DNA of 64,000 bases from Mycoplana azooxidifex (GTDB taxonomy: Bacteria; Pseudomonadota; Alphaproteobacteria; Rhizobiales; Rhizobiaceae): NCBI RefSeq assembly GCF_014196765.1, contig NZ_JACIEE010000015.1, forward strand, positions 1-64,000, in the 5' to 3' direction. Positions within the stretch are counted from its first letter, which is position 1. Each line of letters opens with the position of its first letter. Of the stretch, positions 30,021 through 62,960 are shown piece after piece. A program made the translations under genes and the position numbers. The notes beneath the pieces were generated by a model. It had not been told where the DNA came from, searched no databases, and saw only the letters and a program-made list of their open reading frames with translations.

Positions 30021-30283
30021 GACTTTCCTTCGACAGTCTGTGGCCGCGAGCGTGCATGCGCGCGACGACGCAAGCGCGCCACGGCGCGCACACGGGTCGC
30101 GAACCTGATGAAAATTCTGAAATGGGGAGCATATTCATTCCGGCGGCCCTTTGATCTCGATGGCGAGATGCAGGGCCGTCCCCGGAACGTTTCAAGGCGC
30201 AGGTCGTCCTGCGCGAGCGTTACTTAGCCGGACCGCCCCTGCATTGCAAGGATATCCTGGTCCCGCGTGTGCCCGGAAGGCGG

Positions 30284-48385: not shown

Positions 48386-48460
48386 GCGCCCTTCGTCTAT
48401 CGGTTAGGACGTCAGATTTTCATTCTGAAAAGAGGGGTTCGACTCCCCTAGGGCGTGCCA
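48386..48460 (+). tRNA. tRNA-Glu (UUC), copy 1
   Basis: A 75-base cloverleaf: acceptor GCGCCCT with AGGGCGT, anticodon loop TTTTCAT (anticodon TTC), T arm GGGTTCGACTCCC, encoded CCA. Identical in sequence to the copies at 48610 and 62062. Confidence 0.97.
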
Positions 48461-48609: not shown

Positions 48610-48684
48610 GCGCCCTTCGTCTATCGGTTAGGACGTCAGATTTTCATTCTGAAAAGAGGGGTTCGACTCCCCTAGGGCGTGCCA
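48610..48684 (+). tRNA. tRNA-Glu (UUC), copy 2, attachment site of the island
   Basis: Identical to copy 1. Its last 19 bases (48666-48684) are the left direct repeat of the integrated element; the island starts right after its CCA, so the tRNA itself stays intact. Confidence 0.97.
48666..48684 (+). repeat. attL core: 19 bp direct repeat (left)
   Basis: ACTCCCCTAGGGCGTGCCA, the 3' end of tRNA-Glu copy 2. The same 19 bases recur at 61845-61863. Typical duplication made by a tyrosine integrase that targets a tRNA 3' end. Confidence 0.9.
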
Positions 48685-48717
48685 AAACTCCAATAAATCA
48701 ATGGTACAGCACGGCGA

Positions 48718-48777
48718 GTGAGACAAAATCGTCTCATTGTTTTTCGATAGCTTTTTTTATTACTTGTCTCACCTTTT
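48718..48777. repeat. Left-end candidate integrase arm-type sites
   Basis: GTGAGACAAAA at 48718-48728 and TTGTCTCACCTTTT at 48764-48777; an inverted TGAGAC...GTCTCA pair (48719-48736) is also present. The same two motifs occur near the right end at 61759-61772 and 61788-61798 in mirrored order. Arm-site function is inferred. Confidence 0.65.
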
Positions 48778-48998
48778 CGTCCAAAGTCCGCGCCTTCGCT
48801 TGACCTCCTGCTTTGCCCTGCTGCTCGATGTCCTGATGCTGGTCGTCGTCGCCCCAATTTTTATTGGTCCGGGGAAAGGCGGCGCTCACGCCAGGAAGCT
48901 CGGTATCGACGCCCAGTTCCCGCTTCGCAGCGAAGGCGCTACACTTCGAACGCTGCATTTCGAGTAGACCTTCTGCCGCGGCTAACGGGATTGATAGA

Positions 48999-50864
48999 AT
49001 GGAGCATTCGACCGGCGACAGGCTGAAGACAGGTCTACTGCTGATTGCGGTCGGAGCCCTCGCCAGCGGTCTCGTTCTGGCATTTGGGATTGGGAGGACG
49101 GAGCTTGCCTCTAATGTCTGGCTCGTGGGCGTGGTCCCTGTTCTCGCCGCGCTCCTGATCGAAATCCTACGCAGCCTGCTTCGCGGTGAAGTCGGGCTCG
49201 ACATAGTGGCGGCGCTCTCGATGTCGGCAGCGCTTCTGTTCGGCGAGACACTTGCGGCCGCCGTCGTCGCGGTCATGTATTCCGGAGGCACCTTCCTCGA
49301 GAGCTTCGCCGAGGGCCGCGCGCGACGCGAGATGCGAGACCTGCTCTCGCGCGTCCCCAGGACGGCAACACGGCACTGCAACGGCGCCCTGGAAGACGTG
49401 CCGCTTGATGCAATCCTGCCCGGCGACCGGCTGCTAATACGGCGGGGCGACGTGGTCCCCGTCGACGGCACTGTCGCGTCCTCTGCCGCCTTTCTCGACA
49501 CGTCGGCACTGACGGGCGAGTCTCTTCCGCTGAAGACCGCGAGCGGGGGTGAGGCGATGAGCGGCTCGACGAATGCGGGAGAGGCATTCGACCTTGTTGC
49601 CATGCGACCTGCAAAGGACAGTACATATGCCGGCATCGTGCGCCTTGTTGAAGAGGCCCAGGCCTCGAAGGCGCCGATGTCGCGGCTCGCCGACCGATGG
49701 TCGCTGGCCTTCCTGCTGGTCACTTTGGCAATCGCCTTCTCGGCTTGGTGGTTAACCGGCGATCCGATTCGCGCTGTCGCCGTGCTTGTGGTGGCGACCC
49801 CGTGCCCGCTGATCTTGGCCGTGCCGGTGGCGCTGGTGGCCGGACTCTCTCGCGCCGCACGTTACGGGGTGCTGATCAAGGGAGCCGGACCACTTGAGGC
49901 GATGGCACGCGCGCGCACGCTGATCCTCGATAAGACTGGCACGCTCACCGACGGGCGGCCGCAGATTGTCTCGATCGGCACGTATGGGGGCATCCAGGAA
50001 GACGAGATGTTGAGCCTGGCGGCAGCGCTCGACCAGGCCACCAAGCACCCGGTAGCTCAGGCGATCGTCGCAGCGGCGGGCGAGCGTGGACTAGCACTAC
50101 CGGTTCCAACAGAGGTGACCGAGACTCCAGGCGAGGGTCTAGCGGGGCTGGTCGGTGGTCGCTCTGTCGTCGTGGGCGGGCACGGCTTCGTGATCAGGCA
50201 CGTTGGGGCGACTGCGGTGGAACCTCCGGCCCTGGCGGCGGGATCGGTTCTGGTGGCGGTCGGCATCGACGGCAAGCTCGCGGGCCACCTCGTCATGGCC
50301 GACCCCTTGCGCGACGACACCCATGGGATGCTTTCCGCCCTGCGCCGTCAGGGGGTCAGCCGCATCCTGCTGGCAACAGGGGACCGTCAAGACGTCGCCG
50401 AACGTGTTGCCGAGGGACTCGGGATCGACGGCATCCGCGCCGGCCTCACCCCAGACCAGAAGGTGCTACTGGTGCTCACGGAGCGCAAGCACGGCCCCCT
50501 GATGATGGTCGGCGACGGGGTGAACGATGCGCCGGCGCTGGCCGCGGCTGACATCGGCGTTGCCATGGGCGCGCGCGGGGCGGCGGCCTCAGCAGAGGCT
50601 GCGGACGTGGTCCTGCTTGTCGACCGTGTGGACCGAGTGGCAGTGGGCGTCGAGATTGCGCGCGGCGCGCGACGTATTGCCCTGGAAAGCGTGGTGGCGG
50701 GCATCGGGCTCTCCGTCATCGGCATGGTCGCTGCGGGCCTCGGCTATCTCACTCCCGTGCAGGGCGCGTTGATCCAGGAGGCAATCGACGTTGCCGTCAT
50801 CCTCAATGCGCTGCGTGCGCTCCGCATCTGTCCGGCTGCGACAGCCGCACAGCCTCCGCCATAG
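48999..50864 (+). CDS. P1B-type heavy-metal ATPase with TPC motif
   Basis: A 621-residue metal-translocating P-type ATPase with no N-terminal metal-binding domain. It has TGES at 172-175, the transmembrane-6 motif ATPCPLIL (TPC in place of CPC) at about 266-273, DKTGT phosphorylation site at 311-315, a KHP-type HP motif (TKHPVAQAI) and GDGVNDAP. TPC-type members are a minor P1B subgroup linked to Ni/Fe export in rhizobia, but the metal here is unknown. GGGA precedes the ATG at 48999; the frame is open upstream from 48864. First gene of the island. Confidence 0.85.
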   Translation: MEHSTGDRLKTGLLLIAVGALASGLVLAFGIGRTELASNVWLVGVVPVLAALLIEILRSLLRGEVGLDIVAALSMSAALLFGETLAAAVVAVMYSGGTFLESFAEGRARREMRDLLSRVPRTATRHCNGALEDVPLDAILPGDRLLIRRGDVVPVDGTVASSAAFLDTSALTGESLPLKTASGGEAMSGSTNAGEAFDLVAMRPAKDSTYAGIVRLVEEAQASKAPMSRLADRWSLAFLLVTLAIAFSAWWLTGDPIRAVAVLVVATPCPLILAVPVALVAGLSRAARYGVLIKGAGPLEAMARARTLILDKTGTLTDGRPQIVSIGTYGGIQEDEMLSLAAALDQATKHPVAQAIVAAAGERGLALPVPTEVTETPGEGLAGLVGGRSVVVGGHGFVIRHVGATAVEPPALAAGSVLVAVGIDGKLAGHLVMADPLRDDTHGMLSALRRQGVSRILLATGDRQDVAERVAEGLGIDGIRAGLTPDQKVLLVLTERKHGPLMMVGDGVNDAPALAAADIGVAMGARGAAASAEAADVVLLVDRVDRVAVGVEIARGARRIALESVVAGIGLSVIGMVAAGLGYLTPVQGALIQEAIDVAVILNALRALRICPAATAAQPPP

Positions 50865-50905
50865 AGAGCCGAACGTTTCAGAAAACGATTCAAACAGGAG
50901 TAGAC

Positions 50906-51100
50906 TTGGCATCCGTAGATCACTGTGGTCCGGCATTCCACGGCGCACTTGAAGCAGCGCAGACGGCACGGGCATCATACGCGGCGCGGTACCAGCGCAA
51001 CGCTGAGATCATCGCGGAGAGCTATGAGCAAGGCGTGACGGTCTGCGCTGTCGCGCGGCGTCACGGATTGCCCCCCGCAGAAATCAAGCCCGTGGCCTGA
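50906..51100 (+). pseudogene. Truncated IS66-type TnpA remnant
   Basis: A 64-codon frame (TTG start) whose core RYQRNAEIIAESYEQGVTV and VARRHGLPPAEI matches the helix-turn-helix of IS66 TnpA (OrfA) proteins, which read ESFEPGASVSEVARRHGL and so on. It ends soon after the helix, so the rest of the transposase and the other IS66 genes are gone. A relic between the ATPase and sigma genes. Confidence 0.55.
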
Positions 51101-51159
51101 GAGTACCGCTTAGATGAAGGCTGTGTGCGGCCGAGCGCTCGCAGGCCGCAGCGGCGATC

Positions 51160-52047
51160 TCAAACGTCAATATGCGTCAGCTTATCCGGGTTTTTGACGA
51201 TATAGATCGCGAAGATCTTACCGTCGCGAATGCCAAGAGCTGTAATTTGCAGCACACCATTTGGATCAAGGCTCACATACCCGGGCAGGCCGTCAATAGT
51301 TGCAGTCCGCAGCAAGGTGGGCGGAGTCGCGGTCTTTCGCTGAGCGGAAACGAAGAGTCGCAATGCACGTTCCAAGCCGCGGATGACTTCTCGGAACGCC
51401 AGCACCTTGCCGCCGCCGTCGCTGTGTATCTCGACATCGCGCGCGAGCAACGCCGAAAGCGCGGTGACATCGCCGTCACGCGATGCAGCAAAAAACGCGC
51501 GAGCGATTCCCTCGGCCTCTGCCGCCCCGACGCTATATCGCGGTCGAGCGTTCTGAACATTTTTGCGTGCTCGAGAAGCAAGTTGGCGAACGGCGGCGGG
51601 TTCACGTTCAAGCACGACCGCGATCTCAGTCAGCGCTACGTCGAACACTTCGTGGAGCAGGAAGGCCGCCCGTTCTAGCGGCGATAAACGCTCCAACGCT
51701 AACATTAGCGTCACAGTGACATCGTCAGCAATGGCTTCTTGCGTATCAACAGGCTCGACCAACGGCTCGGGCAGCCATGGGCCGACATAAACCTCGCGCC
51801 GCGCTCGCGCCGACTTCATCCGGTCGAGGCATAGTCGTGTGACAATGCGGGTGAGATAGGCGGTCGGAGTGCGGACTTCGTCTTCGACGCGTGCCCAACG
51901 CAACCACGCGTCCTGTACGACATCTTCCGCCTCGGTAATCGACCCTAGCATCCGATAGCTCAAGCGCAACAATCGTTTACGCTCCACGGTGAATTCTACA
52001 ATCCTCTGGTCGCTGAGCGATACGTCAGCGCTTGCTTCTTTGGCCAT
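51160..52047 (-). CDS. ECF41-family sigma factor with C-terminal SnoaL-like domain
   Basis: A 295-residue extracytoplasmic-function sigma factor. Region 2 is at about residues 16-85 (EAEDVVQDAWLRW at 39-51, LTRIVTRLCLDRMKSA), region 4 at about 108-165, and residues from about 175 form the SnoaL-type domain that regulates ECF41 factors. The conserved WLPEP linker is present at 91-95. The start at 52047 is preferred over 52089 because GAGGGGG precedes it. It is divergent from its likely target, the AhpD-like gene; this pairing is the ECF41 hallmark. Confidence 0.88.
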   Translation of the reverse strand: MAKEASADVSLSDQRIVEFTVERKRLLRLSYRMLGSITEAEDVVQDAWLRWARVEDEVRTPTAYLTRIVTRLCLDRMKSARARREVYVGPWLPEPLVEPVDTQEAIADDVTVTLMLALERLSPLERAAFLLHEVFDVALTEIAVVLEREPAAVRQLASRARKNVQNARPRYSVGAAEAEGIARAFFAASRDGDVTALSALLARDVEIHSDGGGKVLAFREVIRGLERALRLFVSAQRKTATPPTLLRTATIDGLPGYVSLDPNGVLQITALGIRDGKIFAIYIVKNPDKLTHIDV

Positions 52048-52191
52048 CGCCCCCTCACGGATGTTATGATCCCGGTCCGTCTCGTTCATGCCGTTTGTCT
52101 CATGCCACTTTCCTCGCGACCGCCTGACTAGTGGACGAGCGAGTTTGGGCAAGTGTGACATCGCACTGCAAAAAATAGAATCGGGTCGAGA

Positions 52192-52218
52192 TGTCACGCC
52201 TCCAATTGACGCGTCGTC
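52192..52218 (+). promoter_or_regulatory. Candidate ECF41 promoter of the AhpD-like gene
   Basis: TGTCACG (52192-52198), 16 bp, CGTC (52215-52218). ECF41 promoters are described as TGTCACA in the -35 box and CGTC in the -10 box; the exact spacing rule I recall less surely. The motif lies about 45 bases before the target ATG. Confidence 0.65.
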
Positions 52219-52261
52219 AACCGAGCAGCGCCGGCTGTGGCGCAAATTCAAGGAGACCATT

Positions 52262-52714
52262 ATGAATGAGACCACGCGCCTCAATTGGTACGAGGTAGCA
52301 CCCGCTGGAGCAAAAGCCCTGTTCGGCGTCCATCACTACGTCACCCACACGAATTTGCCTGAGGAGCTTATTCATCTAGTGTTCCTACGCGTATCCCAGA
52401 TCAATGGATGCGCACATTGTATCGACCTACACACCCGCGATCTACTAAAGACCATGGCGGCCGACAAGGTCGCTCTGATTCCGGTATGGGAAGAGGTGCC
52501 GTATCTTTTCTCCGAACAGTACCGCGCGGCGCTGGCCTGGGCCGAGGAGGTGACGCTAGTCAGCGAGACCCATGCTTCTGACCAGGCCTATGCTGCTGTT
52601 TCGGCAGTTTTCGAGCCTAAGGATCTGGTTGATCTTACAATCACGATCGCAGCTATGAACGCTTTCAACCGGCTAGGCGCACCATTCCGGCTTCCGGTGA
52701 AAGCGCAGCCGTGA
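52262..52714 (+). CDS. AhpD-like carboxymuconolactone decarboxylase family protein
   Basis: A 150-residue all-helical alkylhydroperoxidase D-type protein. The redox centre is Cys50-x-x-Cys53 with His57 in NGCAHCIDLHTRD, the same arrangement that catalyses peroxide or disulfide chemistry in AhpD. AAGGAG lies 7 bases before the ATG. It is the usual partner of ECF41 sigma factors, and the sigma gene is divergent; a matching promoter sits in between. Likely role is in oxidative or electrophile stress, but the substrate is unknown. Confidence 0.88.
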   Translation: MNETTRLNWYEVAPAGAKALFGVHHYVTHTNLPEELIHLVFLRVSQINGCAHCIDLHTRDLLKTMAADKVALIPVWEEVPYLFSEQYRAALAWAEEVTLVSETHASDQAYAAVSAVFEPKDLVDLTITIAAMNAFNRLGAPFRLPVKAQP

Positions 52715-53012
52715 AAACGCCCTGGAGCCGTTGCTTGGCCACGACGGCACCACTTGTGTTTATGAATCGCTAGCTTGCAGGCACCGCTTGCTTGCAGTGT
52801 TACGACCGGGATAGGGTCGAAACAGGACCTTCATCAATGGGTACAGGCTCCTCCCGGTCGGTGCATTCATGTCATAAAAGCAGCGATAGTGATCGGAACA
52901 GGCACTCGCGCTCAGTCCACTTCTCGTGGCCGAGCTACGCGTGCCAGTAGTTAGCATCATTGGCGCCACAACCAGCAAATTATACTTCTTGCGGAATAGG
53001 TCATCTTGCGCT
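52715..53012. other. Intergenic region before the second sigma gene
   Basis: About 300 bases with no supported gene. It precedes a general-stress-type promoter at 53013. Confidence 0.5.
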
Positions 53013-53037
53013 GGAACAATGTTCGCTTTGGTTCATT
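53013..53037 (+). promoter_or_regulatory. GGAAC-N18-TT promoter motif before the second sigma gene
   Basis: GGAAC (53013-53017), 18 bp, TT (53036-53037). This is the RpoE2/EcfG general-stress consensus described for Sinorhizobium. It lies 25 bases before the ECF gene start, so the gene may be under its own or the host's general-stress sigma. Confidence 0.55.
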
Positions 53038-53061
53038 CCTTTCCGCTAGCGGGAGGTAGCG

Positions 53062-53547
53062 ATGACCCCAGTGGAAGCAGAAACAGTCCGCGCTCAGATC
53101 GTTGCGCTGATACCAGTCCTGAAGCGGTTCGCCTTAAAGCTGCGATATCAGGAACCCGATGACCTAGTTCAGGAAACTCTCACAAAAGCACTCGCTCGAC
53201 TGGAGGGTTTCTCTCCAGGTAGCAATTTAAAGGGTTGGCTTTTCACCATCATGAGAAATGCGTTCTGCACCGGGTGCCTACGGGCGAAGCGCGAGTCGCC
53301 GGGGCGCGATTTCGACTTCGAGGAGATCGCAATAGTCGCTATGCCTACCCAGGAGTGGCATCTGCAAGGATGCGAACTCGAACGCGCCTTACGAGAGCTC
53401 CCCCGCGAACGGCAAGTGCTGTTTGACCTGATTTTTGTGCAAGGCGAGTCCTATAAGCGGGCGGCATTCGAGATGCATTGCGCAATCGGCACGATCAAGA
53501 GCCGGGTCAATCGGATGAGAAAGCAGCTGTCTAGCGAGTTGAACTAG
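53062..53547 (+). CDS. Small ECF sigma factor, EcfG/RpoE-like
   Basis: A 161-residue sigma-70 family protein with region 2 (DDLVQETLTKALARL at 33-47, NLKGWLFTIMRNAF) and region 4 (ALRELPRERQVLFDLIF, GTIKSRVNRMRKQL), and no extra domain. It resembles the EcfG (general stress) branch and its divergent paralogues in rhizobia. No anti-sigma NepR or PhyR gene is beside it. It lies directly upstream of ku1 on the same strand, and both have GGAAC-type promoters, so it may drive the NHEJ genes. Confidence 0.8.
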   Translation: MTPVEAETVRAQIVALIPVLKRFALKLRYQEPDDLVQETLTKALARLEGFSPGSNLKGWLFTIMRNAFCTGCLRAKRESPGRDFDFEEIAIVAMPTQEWHLQGCELERALRELPRERQVLFDLIFVQGESYKRAAFEMHCAIGTIKSRVNRMRKQLSSELN

Positions 53548-53635
53548 CCACGCTAGGCGTAGGTTTCCCTTCACGATTTAAGTAAACCTCCGATAGCAGT
53601 TTGCCTTCCGCTTCTAAGAATTTGCGCTTCGGGCT

Positions 53636-53660
53636 GGAACGATTCATCTTGACACGGCTT
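53636..53660 (+). promoter_or_regulatory. GGAAC-N18-TT promoter motif before ku1
   Basis: GGAAC (53636-53640), 18 bp, TT (53659-53660), 35 bases before the ku1 ATG. Same spacing as the motif before the sigma gene. Confidence 0.55.
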
Positions 53661-53694
53661 TGAATCTCATTCGGGGTGATTCGAGGTTTGTGTC

Positions 53695-54606
53695 ATGGCT
53701 GCAGCGCACCGTGCCCAGTGGAAGGGCTTCCTTAAGTTCGGCGAGGTTTCGTGCGGGGTCGCGCTCTATACGGCGGCCAGCACGTCCGAGCGCATTTCCT
53801 TCAACACGATCAATCAGTCGTCCGGCAACCGTGTGAACCGCATTTTCGTCGACAGCGAGACTGAGGACCCGGTACCGAAAGAACAACAGATTAAGGGCTT
53901 TGAGGTCGAGAACGGGCAGTATATCCAGATCGATCCTGAGGAGATCGCCGCCACTATTCCTGAGAGCGATAAGACGCTCGCCGTTGAAGTGTTCATTCCT
54001 TGCGACGAGATCGACGACGTCTACTTCGACAAGCCGTATTATCTGACACCTGACAAGATGGGAAGCGATGCGTTTGTGGCCCTGCGAGACGGCATGAAAA
54101 AGTCCAAGGTCGCCGCCATTGCCAAAGCCGTCCTTTTCCGCAGGATGCGCACGGTGCTGATACGCCCACACGGCAAGGGTCTGATCGCAACCACTCTTAA
54201 TTACGATTATGAGGTCCGCTCGCCTAAGGCCGCATTCGAGGAGATGCCAAAGCTGCGCATCAAAGGGGAGATGCTCGATCTCGCCAAGCACATTATCGCC
54301 ACCAAAAAGGGGGACTTCGATCCGGCAACATTTGATGACCGCTACGAGGCCGCCCTCGCCGAGCTGGTCAAGGCAAAGTTGGAAGGAAAGTCGTTGCCGA
54401 AGCCGAAGAAGGTGGAGGTATCAAAGCCCGACGACCTGTTGGCTGCCCTACGAAAAAGCGCTGCCTTGCTTAAGGAGGGGGCTGAGGACGGCGGGCCTAA
54501 GCGTACCACCGCCAATGCCAACAAGGGCACCAGACGGGAGCGGGCCGCACGTGGTGCCTCCAAAGCGGCCTCGTCTGGGGAATCTCCGCGCCGCAAGGCA
54601 AGCTAA
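53695..54606 (+). CDS. ku: Ku protein, first copy
   Basis: A 303-residue prokaryotic Ku, the ring-shaped DNA-end-binding protein of non-homologous end joining. The beta-barrel region includes WKGFLKFGEVSCGVALYTAA, LTPDKMGSDAFVALRDGM and KVAAIAKAVLFRRMRTVLI. A basic, Lys/Arg/Ser-rich tail follows at residues 265-303. The two Ku genes are adjacent (12 bases) and both precede the ligase; in Sinorhizobium meliloti such pairs (Ku3/Ku4) are reported to work together, so a heterodimer is plausible. Confidence 0.95.
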   Translation: MAAAHRAQWKGFLKFGEVSCGVALYTAASTSERISFNTINQSSGNRVNRIFVDSETEDPVPKEQQIKGFEVENGQYIQIDPEEIAATIPESDKTLAVEVFIPCDEIDDVYFDKPYYLTPDKMGSDAFVALRDGMKKSKVAAIAKAVLFRRMRTVLIRPHGKGLIATTLNYDYEVRSPKAAFEEMPKLRIKGEMLDLAKHIIATKKGDFDPATFDDRYEAALAELVKAKLEGKSLPKPKKVEVSKPDDLLAALRKSAALLKEGAEDGGPKRTTANANKGTRRERAARGASKAASSGESPRRKAS

Positions 54607-54618
54607 CAGGAGACTGTC

Positions 54619-55431
54619 ATGGCGCAGCGCTATTATTGGAAAGGCTATCTCAAACTGTCGCTGGTCACCTGCCCCGTCATCATGATGCCGGCAACCAGCG
54701 AGAGCGAAAAGGTCCGCTTCCATACCCTCAACCGCGAAACCGGGAACCGGGTGGTGTCTCAATACGTGGATTCCGTTTCTGGAGAGCCGGTCAAGGAAGA
54801 AGACGAGGCCAAGGGTTACGCCCGCGGGGAAAATGACTATGTGATCCTCACCGAGGACGACCTCGATCGGGTCGCACTCGATACTGTGAAGACGATCGAC
54901 ATCGATAAATTTGTTCAGGCGGAGACTATCGAGTGGGTTTACCTTGAGAAGCCCCATTATTTAATGCCCGGCGATGCCGTAGGGAATGAAGCATTTGCCG
55001 TTATCAGGGATGCAATGAAAGCCGACAAGGTCGTGGGTGTCTCCAGAGTGGTGATGGGACGCCGTGAACGAGCCGTCATTCTGGAACCCCGCGACGAAGG
55101 CATCGTCCTGTGGACACTTCGGTTCGGCAACGAGATAAGGCCTGAGGACAGTTACTTCGAGGACATTGAGAAGGAATCGGATCCTGATCTCGTTCCCCTC
55201 GTTCAAGAGCTTATAGAGAAGAAATCTGCGCACTGGTCACCAGACATGGTGAGGGACCCCATTCAGACCAGCCTGCTAAACCTGATTGAGGAAAAGAAGA
55301 AGACCTTGAAACCCAAGAAGTCGGCAAAGGGAAAGAATTCCAAGACAGAACCGAAGTCGAATGTCATCAACATCATGGATGCACTTCGGAGCAGCGTCGA
55401 CGCAGAACTCAAGGCCCGAAAAACTCGGTAA
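54619..55431 (+). CDS. ku: Ku protein, second copy
   Basis: A 270-residue prokaryotic Ku with YWKGYLKLSLVTCPVIMMPA at the N-terminus, YLEKPHYLMPGDAVGNEAFA in the barrel and KSAHWSPDMVRDPIQTSLLN near the C-terminal end. It is shorter than the first copy and lacks its long basic tail. AGGAG lies before the ATG. Start is 12 bases past the first copy, so they share one transcript. It converges with the ligase gene. Confidence 0.95.
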   Translation: MAQRYYWKGYLKLSLVTCPVIMMPATSESEKVRFHTLNRETGNRVVSQYVDSVSGEPVKEEDEAKGYARGENDYVILTEDDLDRVALDTVKTIDIDKFVQAETIEWVYLEKPHYLMPGDAVGNEAFAVIRDAMKADKVVGVSRVVMGRRERAVILEPRDEGIVLWTLRFGNEIRPEDSYFEDIEKESDPDLVPLVQELIEKKSAHWSPDMVRDPIQTSLLNLIEEKKKTLKPKKSAKGKNSKTEPKSNVINIMDALRSSVDAELKARKTR

Positions 55432-55515
55432 AAGGCGGCGGCAGGAACTACCTGCATTGTTCGGGAGGTTCTGGACGAGACCTCTATCTTGGCTTTGTGG
55501 TCCGTGTGTTCACGC

Positions 55516-56487
55516 TCAATCCGGTAACCGGTAGACCGAGGCTGCATCCGCCTCTTCCCGCAGTCCCTTGAATGACGCGTGCCGAAGCTTGCCGTCGTGG
55601 GTCCAGGCGCGGAACTCGATCTCGGCCACGACCACGGGTTTAACGAACACGCCCTTGCGCTTTCCCACGTCGATCGCAGCTTTTGGAACCGCGATCGCGT
55701 CGAGGTGGCGACGGAGCGCCGTTCCGGTTTTTGCAGTAAAGCCAGTCCCTACGCCGCCGACATAGACCAACTGATCGCCCTTCCGGGCTGCCAGCAGTAG
55801 ACGCCCGATACCTCCTAGGGCCACGCGCGAAGGCTCATAGCCGACGATAGCAAACCCCTCGCTCTGCACGCATTTGATCTTCACCCAATCTCCATTGCGG
55901 CCGGCTCGATAAGGCATATCGATATTCTTGCCGATGATCCCCTCAAGGCCCATTTGGCATGCGGCATCGATCAAGAGCGCGCCATCCGAGCCTATGTCTT
56001 CGGACAGGCGAATTACCCCCTCCTCTACGTGGAGCATTTTCTCCAGAAGGGAGCGACGGCCATGCAACGGCAATCGGGTCAGATCTTGGCCATTCAGATA
56101 GAGGAGATCGAACGCGAAGAATAACGCCTCCTCCGCGCTCCGCTTCCCGCCTCGCCCGCCAAGCGCCTGCTGGAGAGCGCCAAAATCCGACCGGTTTTGC
56201 TCATTGAGCACGACCGCCTCGCCATCGAGAATGGCCGTTTCAACTTCGAGATGGCGGGCCGCGCTGGCGATAGAGGGGAACCTCTCCGTCCAATCGTGAC
56301 CGCCGCGGGTTATCACACTGACCCGGCCAGGCTCTATGTGCACAGCGAGGCGATAACCATCCCACTTGACCTCGTACATCCATTGTCGGCCGACAGGAGG
56401 TTTGCTTTTTAGCAGCGCGAGGCAGGGCTCGATGCGTGCCGGCATCGGGTCATCGTGAGTGGGGCTAGAGGAATTACGTTTGGACAT
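55516..56487 (-). CDS. ligD: ATP-dependent DNA ligase, LigD-type ligase domain only
   Basis: A 323-residue ligase with nucleotidyltransferase and OB-fold domains. Adenylation motif I is EVKWDGYRLAV (Lys41); motif III AFDLLYLNG, motif IV EGIIGKNIDMPYRAGR and motif V DWVKIKCVQ follow. The polymerase and phosphoesterase domains of full LigD are absent, so this is a stand-alone ligase of the type that partners Ku in some rhizobia. ATG 56487 is preferred; the frame opens upstream without homology. Convergent with the ku pair. Confidence 0.9.
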   Translation of the reverse strand: MSKRNSSSPTHDDPMPARIEPCLALLKSKPPVGRQWMYEVKWDGYRLAVHIEPGRVSVITRGGHDWTERFPSIASAARHLEVETAILDGEAVVLNEQNRSDFGALQQALGGRGGKRSAEEALFFAFDLLYLNGQDLTRLPLHGRRSLLEKMLHVEEGVIRLSEDIGSDGALLIDAACQMGLEGIIGKNIDMPYRAGRNGDWVKIKCVQSEGFAIVGYEPSRVALGGIGRLLLAARKGDQLVYVGGVGTGFTAKTGTALRRHLDAIAVPKAAIDVGKRKGVFVKPVVVAEIEFRAWTHDGKLRHASFKGLREEADAASVYRLPD

Positions 56488-56746
56488 GCCCCATATTGCG
56501 TCACCCGCGTTTTTGTTCCCGTCTGGAACATTTCTCCCCGAACAAAGGTTCTGTGTGTGGGGCTGACCGCGGGCCCCAGGCGCCATTTAGCGCCGGTACG
56601 GGTAATGGCCCGGAAAGCCAGCGGAAGCTCACGCATGGGCCTCCGCTGGTCACCCCTCGCATCAGACGAGATTGCCCGGCGCAGGATACGTTTAGAACTG
56701 TAAAAACCGCTTGCGCGCCCTATCCTCCGTCATAATGGAGGACGCA

Positions 56747-56977
56747 ATGACTGACATCCCTTCGCCGCGAAAATCACTGAGCCTAGACCGCCTGACCGAT
56801 TGCGAAGAGGCGCTCGAGGCAAAACTGCAGCAACTTGTCTGGGAGGCCGTGAAGGCGGGGTGGGACGAGGTAGAAGCCTGTACTGCTATTGCCACGTTGG
56901 CCGATCATCATATCCTTGCTGTGCTGGATAATCGCAAAACGGACGCGGCCCTGTCGTGGGCCCGCAAGAGGCAATGA
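56747..56977 (+). CDS. Hypothetical 76-residue protein
   Basis: Starts MTDIPSPRKSLSLDRLTD and is mostly helical and acidic-polar (LVWEAVKAGWDEVEACTAIATLA). GGAG lies 6 bases before the ATG. It overlaps the next gene by 4 bases (ATGA). No known family. First of three overlapping small genes that form a compact operon in the middle of the island. Confidence 0.6.
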   Translation: MTDIPSPRKSLSLDRLTDCEEALEAKLQQLVWEAVKAGWDEVEACTAIATLADHHILAVLDNRKTDAALSWARKRQ

Positions 56978-57261
56978 CCTGGCAGAAAAAATTCCGATGG
57001 GTCCGGACGTGGGGCGACGAAACCGGCATCGACGGCAAACCGCATGAGGACTATCAGGGGTTCGATGGTGAGGTCAGCATCGGCCGGATCTACCTCGACC
57101 AGCAGCCCTTGAAGGCGGGGAAATGGTTCTGGGCGATCCAGTACCCAAAGGGTGCGAAGCCGTGGCTGCCGAATAGCGGCTGGGTGCCGACGGCAGCAGA
57201 TGCCGCCCGTATGGTCGAAGAGACGTGGGACCGTCAGAAGGAACGAGCCGAGAATGGCTGA
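56974..57261 (+). CDS. Hypothetical 95-residue protein
   Basis: A basic-aromatic protein (KKFRWVRTWGDETGID, KWFWAIQYPKGAKPWLP) with many Trp. It overlaps the previous gene by 4 bases and the next by 8. No known domain; Trp-rich small proteins of this kind are frequent in phage-derived islands of rhizobia. Confidence 0.6.
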   Translation: MTWQKKFRWVRTWGDETGIDGKPHEDYQGFDGEVSIGRIYLDQQPLKAGKWFWAIQYPKGAKPWLPNSGWVPTAADAARMVEETWDRQKERAENG

Positions 57262-57364
57262 CGGGGATCCACGCGATCTTGGGTGGCTCTACGCGCTGAT
57301 CGTCGGCGGCCTGCTGCTCGCGCTGGCGAGTATGGCAGGGCATGTATGGCAGGTGCTGGGGTGA
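57254..57364 (+). CDS. Small membrane protein, 36 residues
   Basis: MADGDPRDLGWLYALIVGGL starts a single predicted membrane helix followed by a short tail. It overlaps the previous gene by 8 bases. Third gene of the small operon; function unknown. The overlap is the main reason to call it real. Confidence 0.5.
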   Translation: MADGDPRDLGWLYALIVGGLLLALASMAGHVWQVLG

Positions 57365-57420
57365 GTTGGGACCGAGAGTGATCCCGACGAGACATGCACC
57401 GGGTGTTCGGCGCTTGGTGA

Positions 57421-57822
57421 TCAGTTTCTGATCGACGCCTCTTCCGGTTCGGCGAGAAGGAGGCGGATCGCATGGCTGACCTTTGCCGCATCCTCCCGGC
57501 TCAGTGCGATCGTCGTCTCACCGGTTTCCGTCTCGAATAGCAGGCCGAGACCGTATCCTTCCAGAGTCCCGATGTTGAAGTTGGTGGGCCGGATGGCCTT
57601 CACCACCTTGCGATCGGACTCAGCAAGGTGCGGGTCCGCCTCCCGGCGCCGCCGCTCCCATGTCACCGCGAGAGCTTGCAGCGTCTCGATCGTGCGATCC
57701 AGTTCTGCCGGCGTGAGGGCGACCGCCAAGCGGTCCCCGGCGAAGACTTCCAGCACAACCGCTGCCAGGTCGGCCGATAGGTGAACCTTGAGATCCTGCA
57801 AGTACGCGGCGTCGATCTGCAT
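57421..57822 (-). CDS. Hypothetical 133-residue protein
   Basis: Starts MQIDAAYLQDLKVHLSADLA after GGAGGG, with a helical N-terminal half (TPAELDRTIETLQALAVTWERR) and a beta-rich C-terminal half (GYGLGLLFETETGETTIAL). No domain is recognised. It lies just downstream of the phage lysis module on the same strand but after a terminator, so it is likely transcribed separately. Confidence 0.6.
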   Translation of the reverse strand: MQIDAAYLQDLKVHLSADLAAVVLEVFAGDRLAVALTPAELDRTIETLQALAVTWERRRREADPHLAESDRKVVKAIRPTNFNIGTLEGYGLGLLFETETGETTIALSREDAAKVSHAIRLLLAEPEEASIRN

Positions 57823-57880
57823 CAATCCCTCCGTGCATTCGCGGGGACGGTATCCCCGAAGGCGCAGAAAAACCAGCAAC

Positions 57881-57911
57881 AAAAAAGCCCCCGCAGCCGA
57901 AGCCGCGGGGG
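57881..57911 (-). terminator. Rho-independent terminator of the lysis module
   Basis: On the minus strand: stem CCCCCGC...GCGGGGG (57888-57911) followed by TTTTTT (57886-57881). It lies 28 bases past the holin gene. Confidence 0.85.
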
Positions 57912-57939
57912 AAAGATATAGATCTGGAATTGCTGAAGA

Positions 57940-58266
57940 TCACGCCTTGCCGATCCGACCGTTAAGCCATTTCGCAAGCAGGACCTCGGTGCCTCGAGGG
58001 CCTAAGTAGGCGAGGCCGCCTACGATAGCCGGCCGCAGCAAGGGGCCGGCCTCGATGTATGTCGCGACTCCCTCGCCTATCAGCCCCATGCCAACAGCGA
58101 AGGGCAACTCCCACAGGAGTTCCCGGCCGAAGAAGACGCGCTTGGATCGCCGAACCTCGGCGGTATGCCACATGAGCCGCCCGGTCAGAGCGGCGATGAG
58201 TGTCGTGACGCCGCCGCCAAACCAGGCTTGCAGCATCTCGGAAAGCGTCTGGTATTTGTCCGACAT
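57940..58266 (-). CDS. Phage holin (LydA/superfamily III type)
   Basis: A 108-residue protein with about two to three hydrophobic segments (LPFAVGMGLIGEGVATYI and RPAIVGGLAYLG) and an amphipathic N-terminus. It matches the small phage holins that form the lysis pore. It follows the peptidoglycan-binding gene on the minus strand, as in tail-lysis modules of P2-like phages of rhizobia. ATG 58266 is used; a TTG lies one codon before. Confidence 0.75.
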   Translation of the reverse strand: MSDKYQTLSEMLQAWFGGGVTTLIAALTGRLMWHTAEVRRSKRVFFGRELLWELPFAVGMGLIGEGVATYIEAGPLLRPAIVGGLAYLGPRGTEVLLAKWLNGRIGKA

Positions 58267-58280
58267 CAACCGCCCCGGAT

Positions 58281-58711
58281 CTAGTGTTCGACCGGAGGCT
58301 GGCGTTTCAACAGCCCGGCGAATCCGTCACGGGTGATGTTGATCGCGAGCTTCACGATCTTGTCGGCGACCAATACGCCGCCGGCGACATAGGCAGCCGT
58401 CGCGGCATCGAAGCACGATCGAGCAGGGTCGCGCTTGCCGGTGCGCTTCCGGCCATCGCGCTCTTGTCGGGTTCCGGCCGGCCCGGAACCACCGGCGCCG
58501 TCGCTCGCTTGAGCGCGGTAAGGGTCTGAGTCCCCACCCGCCCGTCGACAACAAGACCGGCTCTCTCCTGAAAGAGCCGCACGGCAGTTTCCGTCAGACC
58601 GCCGAAATCTCCGTCGGTCTTGAGTTTCGGTGAAGCGCCGGCGGCGTTCAGCATGGTCTGGAGATCACGGACAGCAGCGCCCCGTGAGCCGACAACCAAT
58701 AACGTCGACAT
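58281..58711 (-). pseudogene. Peptidoglycan-binding lysis protein, probably frameshifted
   Basis: The start (58711) gives a PG-binding type 1 domain (VGSRGAAVRDLQTMLNAAG, GDFGGLTETAVRLFQERAGL, DGRVGTQTLTAL) of about 70 residues. In that frame the protein runs into a Pro/Ser tail and stops at 58352. In another frame the next 45 codons read FDAATAAYVAGGVLVADK then a basic region and end at 58281, which looks like the natural membrane-anchor end. A single-base slip around 58420-58500 would explain this. Alternatively it is a short stand-alone protein. Confidence 0.6.
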
Positions 58712-58730
58712 GTGATAGCCCTCTCAATGC

Positions 58731-58758
58731 AAAAAGGCCCGGGGTGAGACCGGGCCTT
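58731..58758 (-). terminator. Rho-independent terminator after tail X
   Basis: On the minus strand: AAGGCCCGG / CCGGGCCTT stem with a 7-base loop, followed by TTTTT. It lies 33 bases past the tail X stop and before the lysis genes. Confidence 0.85.
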
Positions 58759-58791
58759 GGTGGAGATCAGTATGGAGGATGGTGCTGGCCT

Positions 58792-59043
58792 CTAGTCCCA
58801 GAGCCGGCGGAAGGGTGTCGGCGTCGGAGACGTGACGATCGGAGGGAGCTTAATCACGACGCCCGCTGGGAGCTTCGCGGGTCGATCGGCCAATCCGGGA
58901 TTGGCGTTGTAGATCAGCTCCGTCCTGCGGCGATGGAGGCCGTAGTAGCCGTAGGCAACCTCGTCGACCATGTCTCCGTCTATGGTCACGTAGGCGACCG
59001 TGCCGTCAGCCGCGGTCAGGTATCTGCGGGATCGGTCAATCAT
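58792..59043 (-). CDS. P2-like phage tail protein X
   Basis: An 83-residue protein (MIDRSRRYLTAADGTVAYVT, then ELIYNANPGLADRPAKLPAG and VVIKLPP) that matches the gpX/LysM-like tail completion protein of P2-type phages. Start at 59043 overlaps the stop of the gpD fragment by 4 bases. It shows that the element includes P2-like tail genes. Confidence 0.8.
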   Translation of the reverse strand: MIDRSRRYLTAADGTVAYVTIDGDMVDEVAYGYYGLHRRRTELIYNANPGLADRPAKLPAGVVIKLPPIVTSPTPTPFRRLWD

Positions 59044-59163
59044 GCCGAGGGTACCTCGCATTCGAGAGAGGTGATGTAGGGAGAGCTCGAGGAAAAGGTG
59101 TGCGTGACGGTCTTGATCCGCCACAGGCCATCAACGCCCTCGCGGCACCCTGTGACGCTCGCC
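59040..59163 (-). pseudogene. Late-control gene D (gpD), C-terminal fragment
   Basis: In frame on the minus strand the codons read SVTGCREGVDGLWRIKTV, then a THTFSSSSPYITSLECEV tail, closing at TGA 59040. This is the C-terminus of P2-like late-control protein D. The gene's middle part is found on the opposite strand next to it (59165-59686), so the gene is broken by an inversion. The TGA overlaps the tail X ATG. Confidence 0.75.
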
Positions 59164-59164
59164 C

Positions 59165-59686
59165 ACCTATGGAGACATCTTCGCGGATGTCGCCGGCCAG
59201 ATCGGTGTCGAACTTATCATGGCCGAGGAGCTCAAATCGATCCCGAACCCTTATGAAGCCCAGGCCGAGGAGGACGGCCTGGAGTTCTTGAACCGCATAG
59301 GGGAGAAGATAAATGCGGCCGTCTCCGTGAAGTCGCAGCGATTGGTCGTCGTCTTGAAAGGTGCTGGCCAGAGCGTCGGCGGCGTCCAGTTGGATCTCGT
59401 GGTGGTCACAAATGGGAAGAACATCCTCTCCTACGAGGTGACCCTGAAGGACGAGCCGAAGCACGGCGAAGTCGAGGCGTCCTACTACGACCGAAAGAAA
59501 AACAGCAGGGAAGTCACGACGGCCGGCACTGGGATGGAGGGGCCGAAGTTCGTGATCCCTACACCCTTCCAGAACAAAGAGGACGCACAGCGCGCGACCG
59601 ATGCGAAGGTGAAAGAGCTGGTGCGTGCCCAGGCCGATGCGAGCTTTGTCATCGACGGCGCGCCCTTTGCGCAGGCTGAAGCATGA
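59165..59686 (+). pseudogene. Late-control gene D (gpD), inverted middle part
   Basis: From 59165 the plus strand reads TYGDIFADVAGQIGVELIM, then PNPYEAQAEEDGLEFLNRIG, EVEASYYDRKKNSREVTTAG and ADASFVIDGAPFAQAEA, which lines up with the middle of gpD proteins, whose C-terminus continues V(T/A)GxRxGxDGxWRI. That next part lies on the minus strand at 59163-59040. An ATG at 59219 gives a 155-codon frame, and the piece upstream of it is in the same frame with no stop to 59156. So a 0.5 kb inversion has split the gene. Confidence 0.75.
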
Positions 59687-59771
59687 CGGCGGCCGCCAGC
59701 TGCCGAGCAATCGACAGTGCGTGCTCGAGGCGCCCGGTGTTCACGTCCGGATGCCCGGTCACTGTTAGGGC

Positions 59772-60362
59772 GTGCTCGATGTTCTGCCCTACCCCCTCAC
59801 CTGGCCGGCGAATATGCCGCGCACGAAAACCCAGCTGCGCTCGCAGTTCCGTACCGGTCTGCCCTCCGCCCTCAAGAATGTCCGGAAGTCGATCGCCGCC
59901 TTTTCAAGCGACAGTGGCAAAGCGATTGCCGACCTCGTCATTTCCTCCAACGTCACCCTCGGCGATGACCGCCCGCGCGATATCGGTGTGGCGGTATGGT
60001 TCACATGGGACGGCCTTTCCGTCTGCATCGCCGTCGATCGCTACCCGAACGTCGAGAGCAACCTCCAGGCTATCCATCTGATCCTCGAGGCGCGGCGCAC
60101 TGAGCTCCGGCACGGCGGGCTCAACATTGTCAGGGCGACTTTTACCGGCTTTCAGGCCCTGCCGGCGCCGGCGCAGCGAAGCTGGCGGGACGTGTTCGGC
60201 TTCAATAGTGAGGAGGCGGACCGGATCAACCGCGCCATGATCGACGGTCGCTATCGGCTGCTTGCGGCGGAACGACACCCGGACCGTGCCAGCGGATCAC
60301 ATGAGCTGATGGCCGAACTCAATCGCGCCCGCGCCGAAGCGCTGGCGGAGGTCGGGGCCTGA
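59772..60362 (+). CDS. Phage-type J-domain protein
   Basis: A 196-residue protein. Its C-terminus AERHPDRASGSHELMAELN is a J-domain (HPD at about 171-173) of the kind found in prophage-linked rhizobial proteins; the first two thirds (MPRTKTQLRSQFRTGLPSA, VAVWFTWDGLSVCIAVDRY) is a conserved unnamed part. It may recruit a host DnaK. Start is a GTG at 59772, but ATG 59814 is possible. It overlaps nothing and precedes the Xis-like gene by 1 base. Confidence 0.7.
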   Translation: MLDVLPYPLTWPANMPRTKTQLRSQFRTGLPSALKNVRKSIAAFSSDSGKAIADLVISSNVTLGDDRPRDIGVAVWFTWDGLSVCIAVDRYPNVESNLQAIHLILEARRTELRHGGLNIVRATFTGFQALPAPAQRSWRDVFGFNSEEADRINRAMIDGRYRLLAAERHPDRASGSHELMAELNRARAEALAEVGA

Positions 60363-60363
60363 G

Positions 60364-60651
60364 ATGAAGAAAGCGGAACGCCTCCACGTTTTGCCCCCCA
60401 GCCTGCCCCCTTTCGGGGTCGACCGTGTTCAGGCCGCGGCCTTGGTGGGTATAGGCGAAACCCTCTTCGACCGTTGTGTGGAGCTCGGGCTTCTACCGCA
60501 GCCTCGGGTTATCGGAGGTCGATTTATTTATGATGTAGGTGAGGTCTATGAAGCCTTTAAGAGAATCCCCCACCGCGCCGCCGATGGCAGCACTGACGGA
60601 GCGCCACTTGACGCAGGATACGGCAGCAGCAAGCCTTGGGACGATGCCTAG
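60364..60651 (+). CDS. Xis-like helix-turn-helix protein
   Basis: A 95-residue protein with a MerR/AlpA-like winged helix (QAAALVGIGETLFDRCVELG, then PQPRVIGGRFIYDVGEVYEA), the usual structure of recombination directionality factors. It overlaps the integrase gene by 8 bases, so it probably controls excision or regulates the integrase. No other function is visible. Confidence 0.7.
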   Translation: MKKAERLHVLPPSLPPFGVDRVQAAALVGIGETLFDRCVELGLLPQPRVIGGRFIYDVGEVYEAFKRIPHRAADGSTDGAPLDAGYGSSKPWDDA

Positions 60652-61750
60652 GCCCCGCAAGCACGACAAACTGCCGAAGGGTGTGACGTTTGACCCGGAC
60701 CGGCACAACAACCCGCGCTACTATTTTCGTACTGCGGGCAAGGCGAAGGTGCGTCTTCGCGAGACACCCGGAACAACTGCATTTGACGACGAAGTGGCAT
60801 GTGCACGACTCGGCCAGCCCTACAGCCGCCCGGGAGAAGTCCCGGCCCCGATCGGCGGCAAATCAAAGACGCCCGCGGAAGGCACTCTCGGATGGCTTGT
60901 AACAGAGTATAAGCGCCGGGCGGCAGGATCCGTCACCAATCGCACGATGGAGACCCGAGCAAGAATTCTTGAGGAGGTGTGCCAAAGTCTCACCCCCAAG
61001 AAGAAGCTGCCAAGGGGCCACCTTCCGTTCGCCTCCATGGAAAAGAAGCACATCACAGAGATTCGCGACGAGCTTCGCCCGACCCCAGGCGCCCGGAACG
61101 ATATCGTCAAGGCACTCAGCGCGATGTTCACCTGGGCCGTCGATACGGCCGATCTCTGCAAGATGAATCCTTGCAGCGGGATCAAGCGCCTCAAGTCTGG
61201 CGACGGCTTCCACACGTGGACCGAAGAAGAAGTCCGCCAGTTCGAAGCGAAGCATCCCGCCGGTAGCCGGGCCCGCCTCGCACTGAACATCGGTCTCTAC
61301 ACCGGGTTTCGTCTGCAGACGATGGCGATCTTCGGCCGCCAGCATGTCACCGCTGACGGATGGATCAAGATTCGTCCGGCGAAGACGGCAAGGTCAAGCG
61401 GAGTTGACGTCGATATCCCGATGCTGCCCGAACTGGAGACGGCGCTCGCCGATGGTCCGGTCGGCAACATGACCTTCCTTGTGACCGAGTACGGGAAACC
61501 GTTCTCCGTCAAGGGTCTCGGCAACAAAATGCGTGACTGGTGCGACGAGGCGAAGCTGTTCCATTGTTCCATGCATGGCTTGCGGAAAGCCGGTGCGACC
61601 CGGGCGGCCGAGAACGGCGCGACCGAGAAGCAGCTGATGGCGATTTTTGGTTGGACCACTATGGAACAGGCCAGCTACTACACCGAGAAAGCGAACCGAA
61701 AGAAGCTGGCCGGCGCAGGGATGAAGTTCCTGTCGAAGGAACAGAAGTAG
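60644..61750 (+). CDS. int: Tyrosine-type site-specific integrase of the island
   Basis: A 368-residue phage integrase. The N-terminal half holds an SAM-like core-binding domain; the catalytic domain has Arg223 (in YTGFRLQTM), His311-x-x-Arg314 (in HGLRKAGATR), Trp337 and Tyr345/346 (in QASYYTEKA). The start at 60644 (MPRPRKHDKLPK) overlaps the previous gene's stop. It sits about 95 bases from the attR repeat, the usual place for an integrase. It should catalyse recombination at the tRNA-Glu 3' end. Confidence 0.92.
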   Translation: MPRPRKHDKLPKGVTFDPDRHNNPRYYFRTAGKAKVRLRETPGTTAFDDEVACARLGQPYSRPGEVPAPIGGKSKTPAEGTLGWLVTEYKRRAAGSVTNRTMETRARILEEVCQSLTPKKKLPRGHLPFASMEKKHITEIRDELRPTPGARNDIVKALSAMFTWAVDTADLCKMNPCSGIKRLKSGDGFHTWTEEEVRQFEAKHPAGSRARLALNIGLYTGFRLQTMAIFGRQHVTADGWIKIRPAKTARSSGVDVDIPMLPELETALADGPVGNMTFLVTEYGKPFSVKGLGNKMRDWCDEAKLFHCSMHGLRKAGATRAAENGATEKQLMAIFGWTTMEQASYYTEKANRKKLAGAGMKFLSKEQK

Positions 61751-61758
61751 CACAGAGT

Positions 61759-61798
61759 TTGTCTCACCTTTTCCGGGGTGGCAAAAAGTGAGACAAAA
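61759..61798. repeat. Right-end candidate integrase arm-type sites
   Basis: TTGTCTCACCTTTT at 61759-61772 and GTGAGACAAAA at 61788-61798, mirroring the left end sites at 48718-48777. Located between the integrase stop and attR. Confidence 0.65.
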
Positions 61799-61844
61799 AC
61801 GTCGAAATTATCCAGCTATTTCAAGGTCCAATATTTCAGCTGGA

Positions 61845-61863
61845 ACTCCCCTAGGGCGTGCCA
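61845..61863 (+). repeat. attR core: 19 bp direct repeat (right)
   Basis: ACTCCCCTAGGGCGTGCCA, identical to 48666-48684. No full tRNA here, only the 3' end copy. Marks the right boundary of the island. Confidence 0.9.
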
Positions 61864-62061: not shown

Positions 62062-62136
62062 GCGCCCTTCGTCTATCGGTTAGGACGTCAGATTTTCATT
62101 CTGAAAAGAGGGGTTCGACTCCCCTAGGGCGTGCCA
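62062..62136 (+). tRNA. tRNA-Glu (UUC), copy 3
   Basis: Identical to copies 1 and 2, with encoded CCA. In the ancestral chromosome it lay about 0.2 kb after copy 2, before the island entered. Confidence 0.97.
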
Positions 62137-62919: not shown

Positions 62920-62960
62920 GCGCCCATCGTCTAGCGGTTAGGACATCGCCCTCTCACGGC
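62920..62960 (+). pseudogene. tRNA-Glu (CUC), 5' half, disrupted
   Basis: GCGCCCATCGTCTAGCGGTT begins the acceptor and D arm, and the anticodon loop CTCTCAC (anticodon CTC) is followed by GGC. After 62960 the expected stem GGCG and the rest of the tRNA are missing; unrelated sequence follows with AACGACAA repeats and an integrase. So the gene is cut in or just after the anticodon stem by a second integrative element. The 3' half should lie at the element's other end. Confidence 0.85.

Follow-up and report, generated by a model that had tools for sequence, protein, structure and literature searches.

The window analysed here is the whole stretch of 64,000 nucleotides at C15:1-64000, on contig C15 of the 5.88-Mb genome of Mycoplana azooxidifex. 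From 48685 to 61863 it carries an island of ~13 kb, in which two adjacent Ku genes (kuA and kuB) and a stand-alone ATP-dependent ligase of the non-homologous end-joining (NHEJ) type lie together with phage lysis and tail genes, a Xis-like gene and a tyrosine integrase (Table 1). The island is situated in a tandem array of tRNA-Glu(ttc) genes, placed by ARAGORN at 48386, 48610 and 62062 of the window. The second gene ends in 19 bp that recur exactly at the far end of the island; the 64 kb contain two further copies of this 19-mer, one at the end of each neighbouring tRNA-Glu gene. The G+C content of the island is 0.602, compared to 0.653 in the remaining window. Inside the two island ends, paired direct repeats containing GTGAGACAAAA and TTGTCTCAC represent candidate arm sites for the integrase.

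The tRNA-Glu integration site and the phage genes

The site was compared across a genus sample of seven genomes, one per species and our own included. A clear empty site is present in three of the six genus-mates (G004, G006 and G002), where the gap between the second and the third tRNA-Glu gene measures 182, 286 and 284 bp, respectively; taking the island out of the window leaves 198 bp. When the window flanks are joined in this way, 293 of 349 columns are identical to G004. The island occupies the site in none of the six: G001 and G003 show a different tRNA spacing at a site devoid of island proteins, the G005 contig stops at the site, and no match to an island protein was found there in the five genus-mates with a readable site. 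The island has thus integrated into tRNA-Glu, and the empty site in three genus-mates rules out a core locus. An earlier note on this DNA, made from the letters alone, had described an island with 19 bp att repeats, a Xis-like gene and an integrase in tRNA-Glu. It had proposed looking for the empty site in relatives, and a ku-ku-lig block without att repeats, shared by all of them at this position, would have spoken against it. The repeats are exact, both genes are present, and the empty site was seen; the block is missing from the site in the five readable genus-mates.

The catalytic columns of the integrase are invariant across 10 relatives. The Xis-like open reading frame (ORF) gave no Pfam match; with our own record set aside, a homologue lies ahead of related integrases at 29 of 63 viral loci, and the same holds for 10 of 11 genome loci. 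Relatives of the integrase occur in 64 viral contigs, including the window's own public record, which starts inside the island at 54619. Among these, 23 loci other than this record share 54-78% identity; 18 of the 23 are contigs of 31-48 kb, and in 19 the integrase lies within 2.5 kb of a contig end. The 11 genome loci (51-65% identity) adjoin a tRNA-Leu, -Met or -Lys gene in ten cases; among the loci examined, no second instance of the same integrase in tRNA-Glu was found. The 19-mer of the island was not found in the other integrase loci examined.

The lysis and tail genes (57940-59686) had gone unmentioned in the earlier note, as had the third tRNA-Glu gene and the second element described below. 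Capsid, terminase and portal families were not matched by the 17 island ORFs (Pfam) or by ten proteins compared to PHROGs, which does not fit an intact temperate phage. No relaxase or type IV secretion family was matched by Pfam among the 17 ORFs, and an integrative and conjugative element was rejected on this basis. The ten island proteins (of 17) that were compared to PADLOC gave no match, and a defence system was rejected on these grounds. What was found is the inventory of a tRNA-integrated prophage remnant, namely a tyrosine integrase, an att repeat at a tRNA 3′ end, an empty site, and phage structural and lysis genes. Because of these phage genes, the viral-contig kin of the integrase and the lack of capsid, terminase, relaxase or type IV secretion matches, we read the island as a defective prophage rather than a conjugative element.

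The same array shows signs of a further insertion. A tRNA-Glu(ctc) gene is represented at 62920-62960 by its first 41 nt and, ~47.5 kb away, by the whole gene at C15:110436-110510 (L269:11436-11510). The DNA in between contains an integrase (C15:63482-63958) and large ORFs that resemble phage structural genes by reading. A partial and a whole tRNA gene with an integrase in between point to a second element, 0.8 kb past the third tRNA-Glu.

Origins of the Ku pair and the ligase

Both Ku genes score above the curated TIGR02772 cut-off of 150 bits, with 264 and 274 bits, as expected for bacterial NHEJ Ku. The ligase (356 aa) reaches 322 bits against TIGR02779 (cut-off 228), consists of adenylation and C-terminal domains only, and has its KWDG and other motif columns invariant in ten aligned sequences, in line with a bacterial NHEJ ligase. 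No polymerase or phosphoesterase family was matched, so that the fused domains of LigD are missing and LigD identity is ruled out. The earlier description of two adjacent Ku genes and a LigD-type ligase lacking these domains is therefore upheld, and the genes are intact. Relative to the nearest kin, Ku, ligase and integrase show pN of 0.11-0.16 at a pS of 0.65-0.70, the latter being close to saturation, and the frames are open. The low pN suggests that all three were under selection over that time.

For comparison, 80 named ku loci from genomes were inspected, and all counts refer to their examined flanks. The KuA-KuB order is kept in 78 of them (in L129 and L133 a KuA relative is inverted and distant), and KuB relatives of some degree occur in 666 plasmid records. 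Nearest to the island KuB (~80%) are Rhizobium pairs without an adjoining ligase of at least 50%. In the KuB tree, calculated with the more careful method and evaluated from its summary lines, the window groups with 11 ligase-less pairs (support 97/89), which assigns the Ku pair to a ligase-less Rhizobium stock.

The ligase has a different affiliation. A same-strand ligase follows ku within ~1 kb in 25 of the 80 loci and is 41-62% identical to that of the island; many loci have inverted ligases further downstream, which are LigD-like and 34-44% identical. An inverted ligase of at least 50% adjoining ku was observed in the window only. The closest relatives (72-79%) belong to two viral contigs, G005, G002 and contig C8 of our own genome, and together with the island ligase they form a six-row clade (support 100), whereas all 40 ku-adjacent rows fall into a separate clade (support 99). 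This tree holds 153 rows, 139 of which differ, some ku-adjacent rows being copies of one locus; it includes 10 of 35 LigD-type rows and no row that contains a stop or is poorly covered. As ligase and Ku fall into different tree groups, the ku-ku-lig block is a meeting of two lineages, and by these comparisons the ligase and the Ku pair are shown to be of separate origin and the block to be composite. An assignment to the ku-ku-lig operons of Rhizobiaceae is rejected, the island ligase being on the opposite strand and outside the ku-adjacent clade, and a conserved ku-ku-lig-sigma block is ruled out by the 80-locus comparison and the two trees. The earlier picture of a self-contained kit moving as one block is thus not retained.

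Related ligases are widespread among phages. We found 194 viral-contig stretches that carry one, as do 50 phage records, 16 of which are Rhizobium or Sinorhizobium phages including phiLM21 and PPF1; Bacillus phage records among the matches share ~25% identity. Of the 194 stretches, 80 were analysed, our own record included; in the other 79 viral loci, 60 have lysis or tail matches, and in 46 the ligase is within 5 kb of the contig end. Judged from these matches, NHEJ-type ligases belong to the common equipment of rhizobial phages. For two of the small ORFs next to the island ligase, relatives are present in 11 and 23 of 82 loci with phage-lineage ligases, compared to 2 and 1 of the 80 ku loci.

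Ku genes occur in phage contexts as well. An aligned KuB query identified 17 viral-contig loci, one being the window's own, and Ku is found beside lysis or tail genes in eight of the other 16 (L251-L254 and L395-L398, with L252 and L253 resembling one phage). Among the genome ku loci, phage lysis genes were detected in one of 80, L076 of Rhizobium lusitanum, with the order integrase, KuA, KuB, SRAP, holin. The lysis and tail seeds were partly drawn from loci that were later scanned, and their names were backed by further checks. Phage-borne Ku is scattered over several clades of the KuB tree, where strong branches force at least four changes as labelled; the label takes in L399, a phage locus only putatively, and with the likeness of L252 and L253 this number may be too high. 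As phage-borne Ku does not form one clade, its uptake by prophages seems to have been a repeated event. A tyrosine recombinase was detected in the flanks of at most five of the 80 genome loci (E 1e-4) by a hidden Markov model widened with 42 seeds; the narrower model (1 of 80) missed the true integrase of L145. No tRNA gene was found in the 53 of the 80 loci that were scanned. Relatives of SRAP, the SOS-response-associated peptidase, were noted near phage-borne Ku or ligase in L076, L251, L396, L398, L399, L271 and L304, and an ORF named by eye as DNA polymerase IV-like (L253:6839-8125) lies ahead of a Ku pair.

The genome holds two further ku pairs, on contigs C1 and C17, and a LigD candidate, an 868-aa ORF on C1 recognised by its ligase match. 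With two other pairs in the host, the island kit is an extra one. After the C17 pair, a stand-alone ligase is present in shifted frames (C17:29400-30500, L144:9476-10438), possibly by assembly error, which leaves the island ligase as the intact one of two ku-adjacent stand-alone ligases. A Ku fragment with a stop (C6:456966-459233, L145), 1.7 kb from a tyrosine integrase, is perhaps a second, decayed integrase-linked ku.

A putative stress promoter, sigma factors and presumed passenger genes

The sequence GGAAC-N17-19-TT precedes KuA in 77 of 79 loci, window included, compared to 31 of 1580 mononucleotide shuffles, with GGAAC 50-71 nt before the KuA start. The count omits L129 and L133, where the KuA query matched KuB; including them gives 79 of 81. 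We take GGAAC and TT to be the -35 and part of the -10 element of EcfG/RpoE2 promoters. This looser box was chosen after the strict form had been seen to be absent from the window, and was then counted with its spacing; strict GGAAC/CGTT occurs in 15 of 81 ku loci and in 74 of 4000 random stretches. GGAAC is likewise found upstream of the phage-borne pairs L251-L253, L398 and L076. In its loose form, the mark of an EcfG/RpoE2-controlled gene is thus present in nearly all loci, and stress control of the Ku pair, as proposed earlier, is supported by the conservation of the box.

Conversely, the proposal that sigma factors of the island itself act as the controller finds little room. The box is general to ku pairs, and sigma neighbours are not conserved: relatives above 50 bits in the flanks of the 80 ku loci amount to one for the EcfG-like sigma, one for AhpD, and none for ECF41 or the ATPase. 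The host EcfG adjoins nepR on C11, and NepR matches are confined to contigs C10 and C11. The island sigma is not EcfG proper, as it lacks an adjoining nepR and scores far below the cut-offs of the NCBIfam equivalogs. Since the host owns a nepR-ecfG pair, the island sigma need not control Ku; host EcfG would suffice, with a role of the island sigma being possible. ECF sigma genes also lie 0.6-0.7 kb from chromosome-type Ku in three of the seven genus genomes (own C1:474814, G001:C8:46279 and G002:C8:12528).

The neighbours named in the earlier note, i.e. the EcfG-like sigma, an ECF41/AhpD pair and a metal ATPase, were all identified by family matches. For the NF007214-type sigma we assume the name ECF41. 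A TGTCAC-N17-CGTC box at 52192, before the CMD/AhpD-type gene, is presumably the box of the ECF41/AhpD pair. Both this pair and the gene for the metal ATPase appear to be separate passengers. Between ATPase and sigma (50964-51110), a frame AEIIAESYEQGVTVCAVARRHGL resembles what we take to be an IS66-type transposase remnant, and the left cargo may have arrived by transposition. Elsewhere in the window, a guanidine-II riboswitch (30171-30215, minus strand) was detected above the Rfam gathering score.

Table 1 Features of the island and its borders (window coordinates)
Feature	Position	Strand	Basis or remark
tRNA-Glu(ttc), integration target, second of three tandem copies	48610..48684	+	ARAGORN, Rfam; attL core 48666-48684 is its 3′ end
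Left arm-like direct repeats	48717-48733, 48764-48778		matched inside right end; putative binding role
Heavy-metal P-type ATPase, passenger	48864..50864	+	TIGR01512 450 bits, cut-off 313.5
ECF41/SigJ-type sigma, passenger	51160..52050	-	NF007214 'SigJ' 364 bits, cut-off 271
CMD/AhpD-type gene, divergent from ECF41-type sigma	52262..52714	+	PF02627
EcfG-like ECF sigma paralogue	53062..53547	+	42% to host EcfG (C11), 53% to C17 paralogue
EcfG-type promoter box of Ku pair (GGAAC, 18 nt, TT)	53636..53661	+	conserved in relatives
KuA	53695..54606	+	PF02735, TIGR02772
KuB	54619..55431	+	PF02735, TIGR02772; tree
Stand-alone NHEJ-type ATP-dependent ligase, prophage lineage, convergent to ku	55516..56586	-	PF01068, PF04679, TIGR02779; tree
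Three small ORFs beside ligase	56711..57882		two with relatives near phage ligases, third none
LydA-type holin	57940..58269	-	PF16083, phrog_126
Peptidoglycan-binding piece of endolysin, without enzyme domain	58352..58711	-	PF01471; phrogs endolysins
Phage tail protein X	58792..59124	-	PF05489, phrog_46
Phage tail protein fragment	59219..59686	+	phrog_52, positions 324-474 of 677
Phage protein, function unassigned	59772..60362	+	phrog_9210
Xis-like protein	60364..60651	+	position ahead of related integrases
Tyrosine integrase	60539..61750	+	PF00589, phrog_1; true start perhaps ATG at 60644
Right arm-like direct repeats	61759-61773, 61787-61803		pair with 48764-48778 and 48717-48733, respectively
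attR core	61845..61863	+	exact 19-bp copy of 48666-48684
Third tRNA-Glu(ttc), outside island	62062..62136	+	ARAGORN

Proposed history and relation to known systems

We consider it probable that the island is a phage remnant in which a phage-lineage ligase and a captured Ku pair under an EcfG-type promoter provide end joining in times of stress. A temperate rhizobial phage would have integrated into the second tandem tRNA-Glu gene by means of its tyrosine integrase; the genes for head and packaging, and most of those for the tail, would have been lost later. A Ku pair of the ligase-less kind found on Rhizobium replicons would have been captured next to the phage-lineage ligase by the lysis genes, retaining its own EcfG-type (general stress response) promoter. 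Under stress, host EcfG and possibly the EcfG-like sigma of the island would turn on kuA-kuB; KuA and KuB, probably jointly, would hold DNA ends and recruit a ligase, either that of the island or host LigD, and the breaks would be sealed. Because the island ligase has no polymerase and phosphoesterase parts, gap filling would need host LigD. Use of the promoter, joint Ku action, recruitment of a ligase, end joining itself, any benefit to host or phage, and present mobility, including excision and transfer, are what we infer.

Several observations weigh against this reading. The Ku pair may have entered after the phage had decayed. In the ten Ku-bearing phage-type loci tested, the DNA examined contains no ligase, Ku is missing from all 79 viral ligase loci, and no intact phage with both was found in these two sets. 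The ligase tree is a quick one without bootstrap and with a long-branch warning, and the KuA tree, also made by the quick method, agrees with the KuB placement without strong support. The strict promoter form does not occur in the window. As regards the uniqueness of the block, a phage-lineage ligase lies 6.5 kb from a ku pair on pRL11 of Rhizobium johnstonii (L066), and a 61% ligase, outside the tree, 5 kb from a ku pair in L089.

Three other explanations were weighed. That the end-joining genes were of use to the phage itself, whether to seal or repair its ends or to survive nuclease cuts, appears unlikely: such ligases are common in rhizobial phages, Ku stands beside lysis genes in some prophages and mycobacteriophage Ku exists, but the phage here is defective, and in front of Ku stands a host stress-type promoter rather than an early phage promoter. 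Rather improbable is that the genes are passive passengers, cargo in a dead prophage without a present role. The redundancy with the host ku pairs and the piecemeal state of the endolysin and tail genes fit such decay, whereas the open frames and low pN of Ku, ligase and integrase do not; it is the ligase of the C17 operon that is frame-shifted instead. Very unlikely, finally, is that ku-ku-lig forms a self-contained operon that is equipped with sigma factors of its own and, carried by an integrative element, would spread break repair between strains. Such an operon would account for the att sites, the integrase, the intact genes and the EcfG-like sigma 150 bp ahead of kuA, but ligase and Ku are of different stocks, the ligase is on the opposite strand, the sigma genes are not conserved neighbours, no transfer gene was matched, and the host has two more ku pairs. 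From the earlier note, which favoured such a kit, integration, empty site, intact genes and a stress-type promoter stand; the one-block kit and control by its own sigma factors do not, and its spread between strains is not supported, given the lack of capsid, terminase, relaxase and type IV secretion matches among the 17 ORFs and the further ku pairs. Extending the preferred reading of a phage remnant with a captured Ku pair, we suggest, with more doubt than confidence, that temperate phages of rhizobia maintain, next to their lysis genes, an end-joining locker with exchangeable contents: NHEJ ligases would be present very often, Ku pairs with a stress promoter would have been picked up several times, and SRAP or Pol IV genes would come and go. 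Here, Ku pair and phage ligase would have met on one element as a mobile, phage-derived NHEJ kit that increases both break repair under stress and the capture of foreign DNA in its host.

Extra stress-inducible Ku pairs are reportedly known from Sinorhizobium meliloti, in work ascribed to Kobayashi in 2008 and Dupuy in 2017 and 2019. The island is alike in its Ku gene pair and stress-type promoter box, and differs by the att-bounded prophage remnant and the adjoining phage-lineage ligase. With the ku-ku-lig operons known from Rhizobiaceae, seen here in 25 of 80 loci, it shares KuA-KuB order and box, but their ligase is on the same strand and of another clade. Rhizobial prophage ligases (phiLM21, PPF1) are alike in type and in their site near lysis or tail genes; unlike that of the island, such ligases have no adjoining Ku in any of the 79 viral loci. 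Mycobacteriophage Ku works with host LigD, and 48 of 49 phage records with Ku are mycobacterial. Ku on a phage genome is shared with mycobacteriophages and with the 11 Ku-carrying phages in PMC8136500, but these have a single Ku, less than 31% identical, instead of a pair. For phages, LigD is listed once in PMC12429752. PMC5537653 places such ligases among the most conserved sinorhizobial phage proteins, and the term "end joining" does not appear in its main text. PMC7719229 gives 60 genomes with plasmid NHEJ, Rhizobiales in particular, and no NHEJ in the horizontally acquired chromosome part, judged by composition. Among the papers listed in a search by title and abstract start, with most subscription journals outside it, none deals with Ku pairs in rhizobial prophages or with a ku-lig prophage island.

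In summary, stress-induced extra Ku, phage ligases and phage Ku are already known; what is new is a Ku pair with a phage-lineage ligase on an att-bounded prophage remnant. The locus represents an att-bounded case of NHEJ whose site, part of a tRNA array common to the genus, is empty in three genus-mates. It suggests a route for the gain of NHEJ, with Ku from one source and the ligase from phages, and the ligases of sinorhizobial phages may be partners of Ku, be it that of the host or one carried along.

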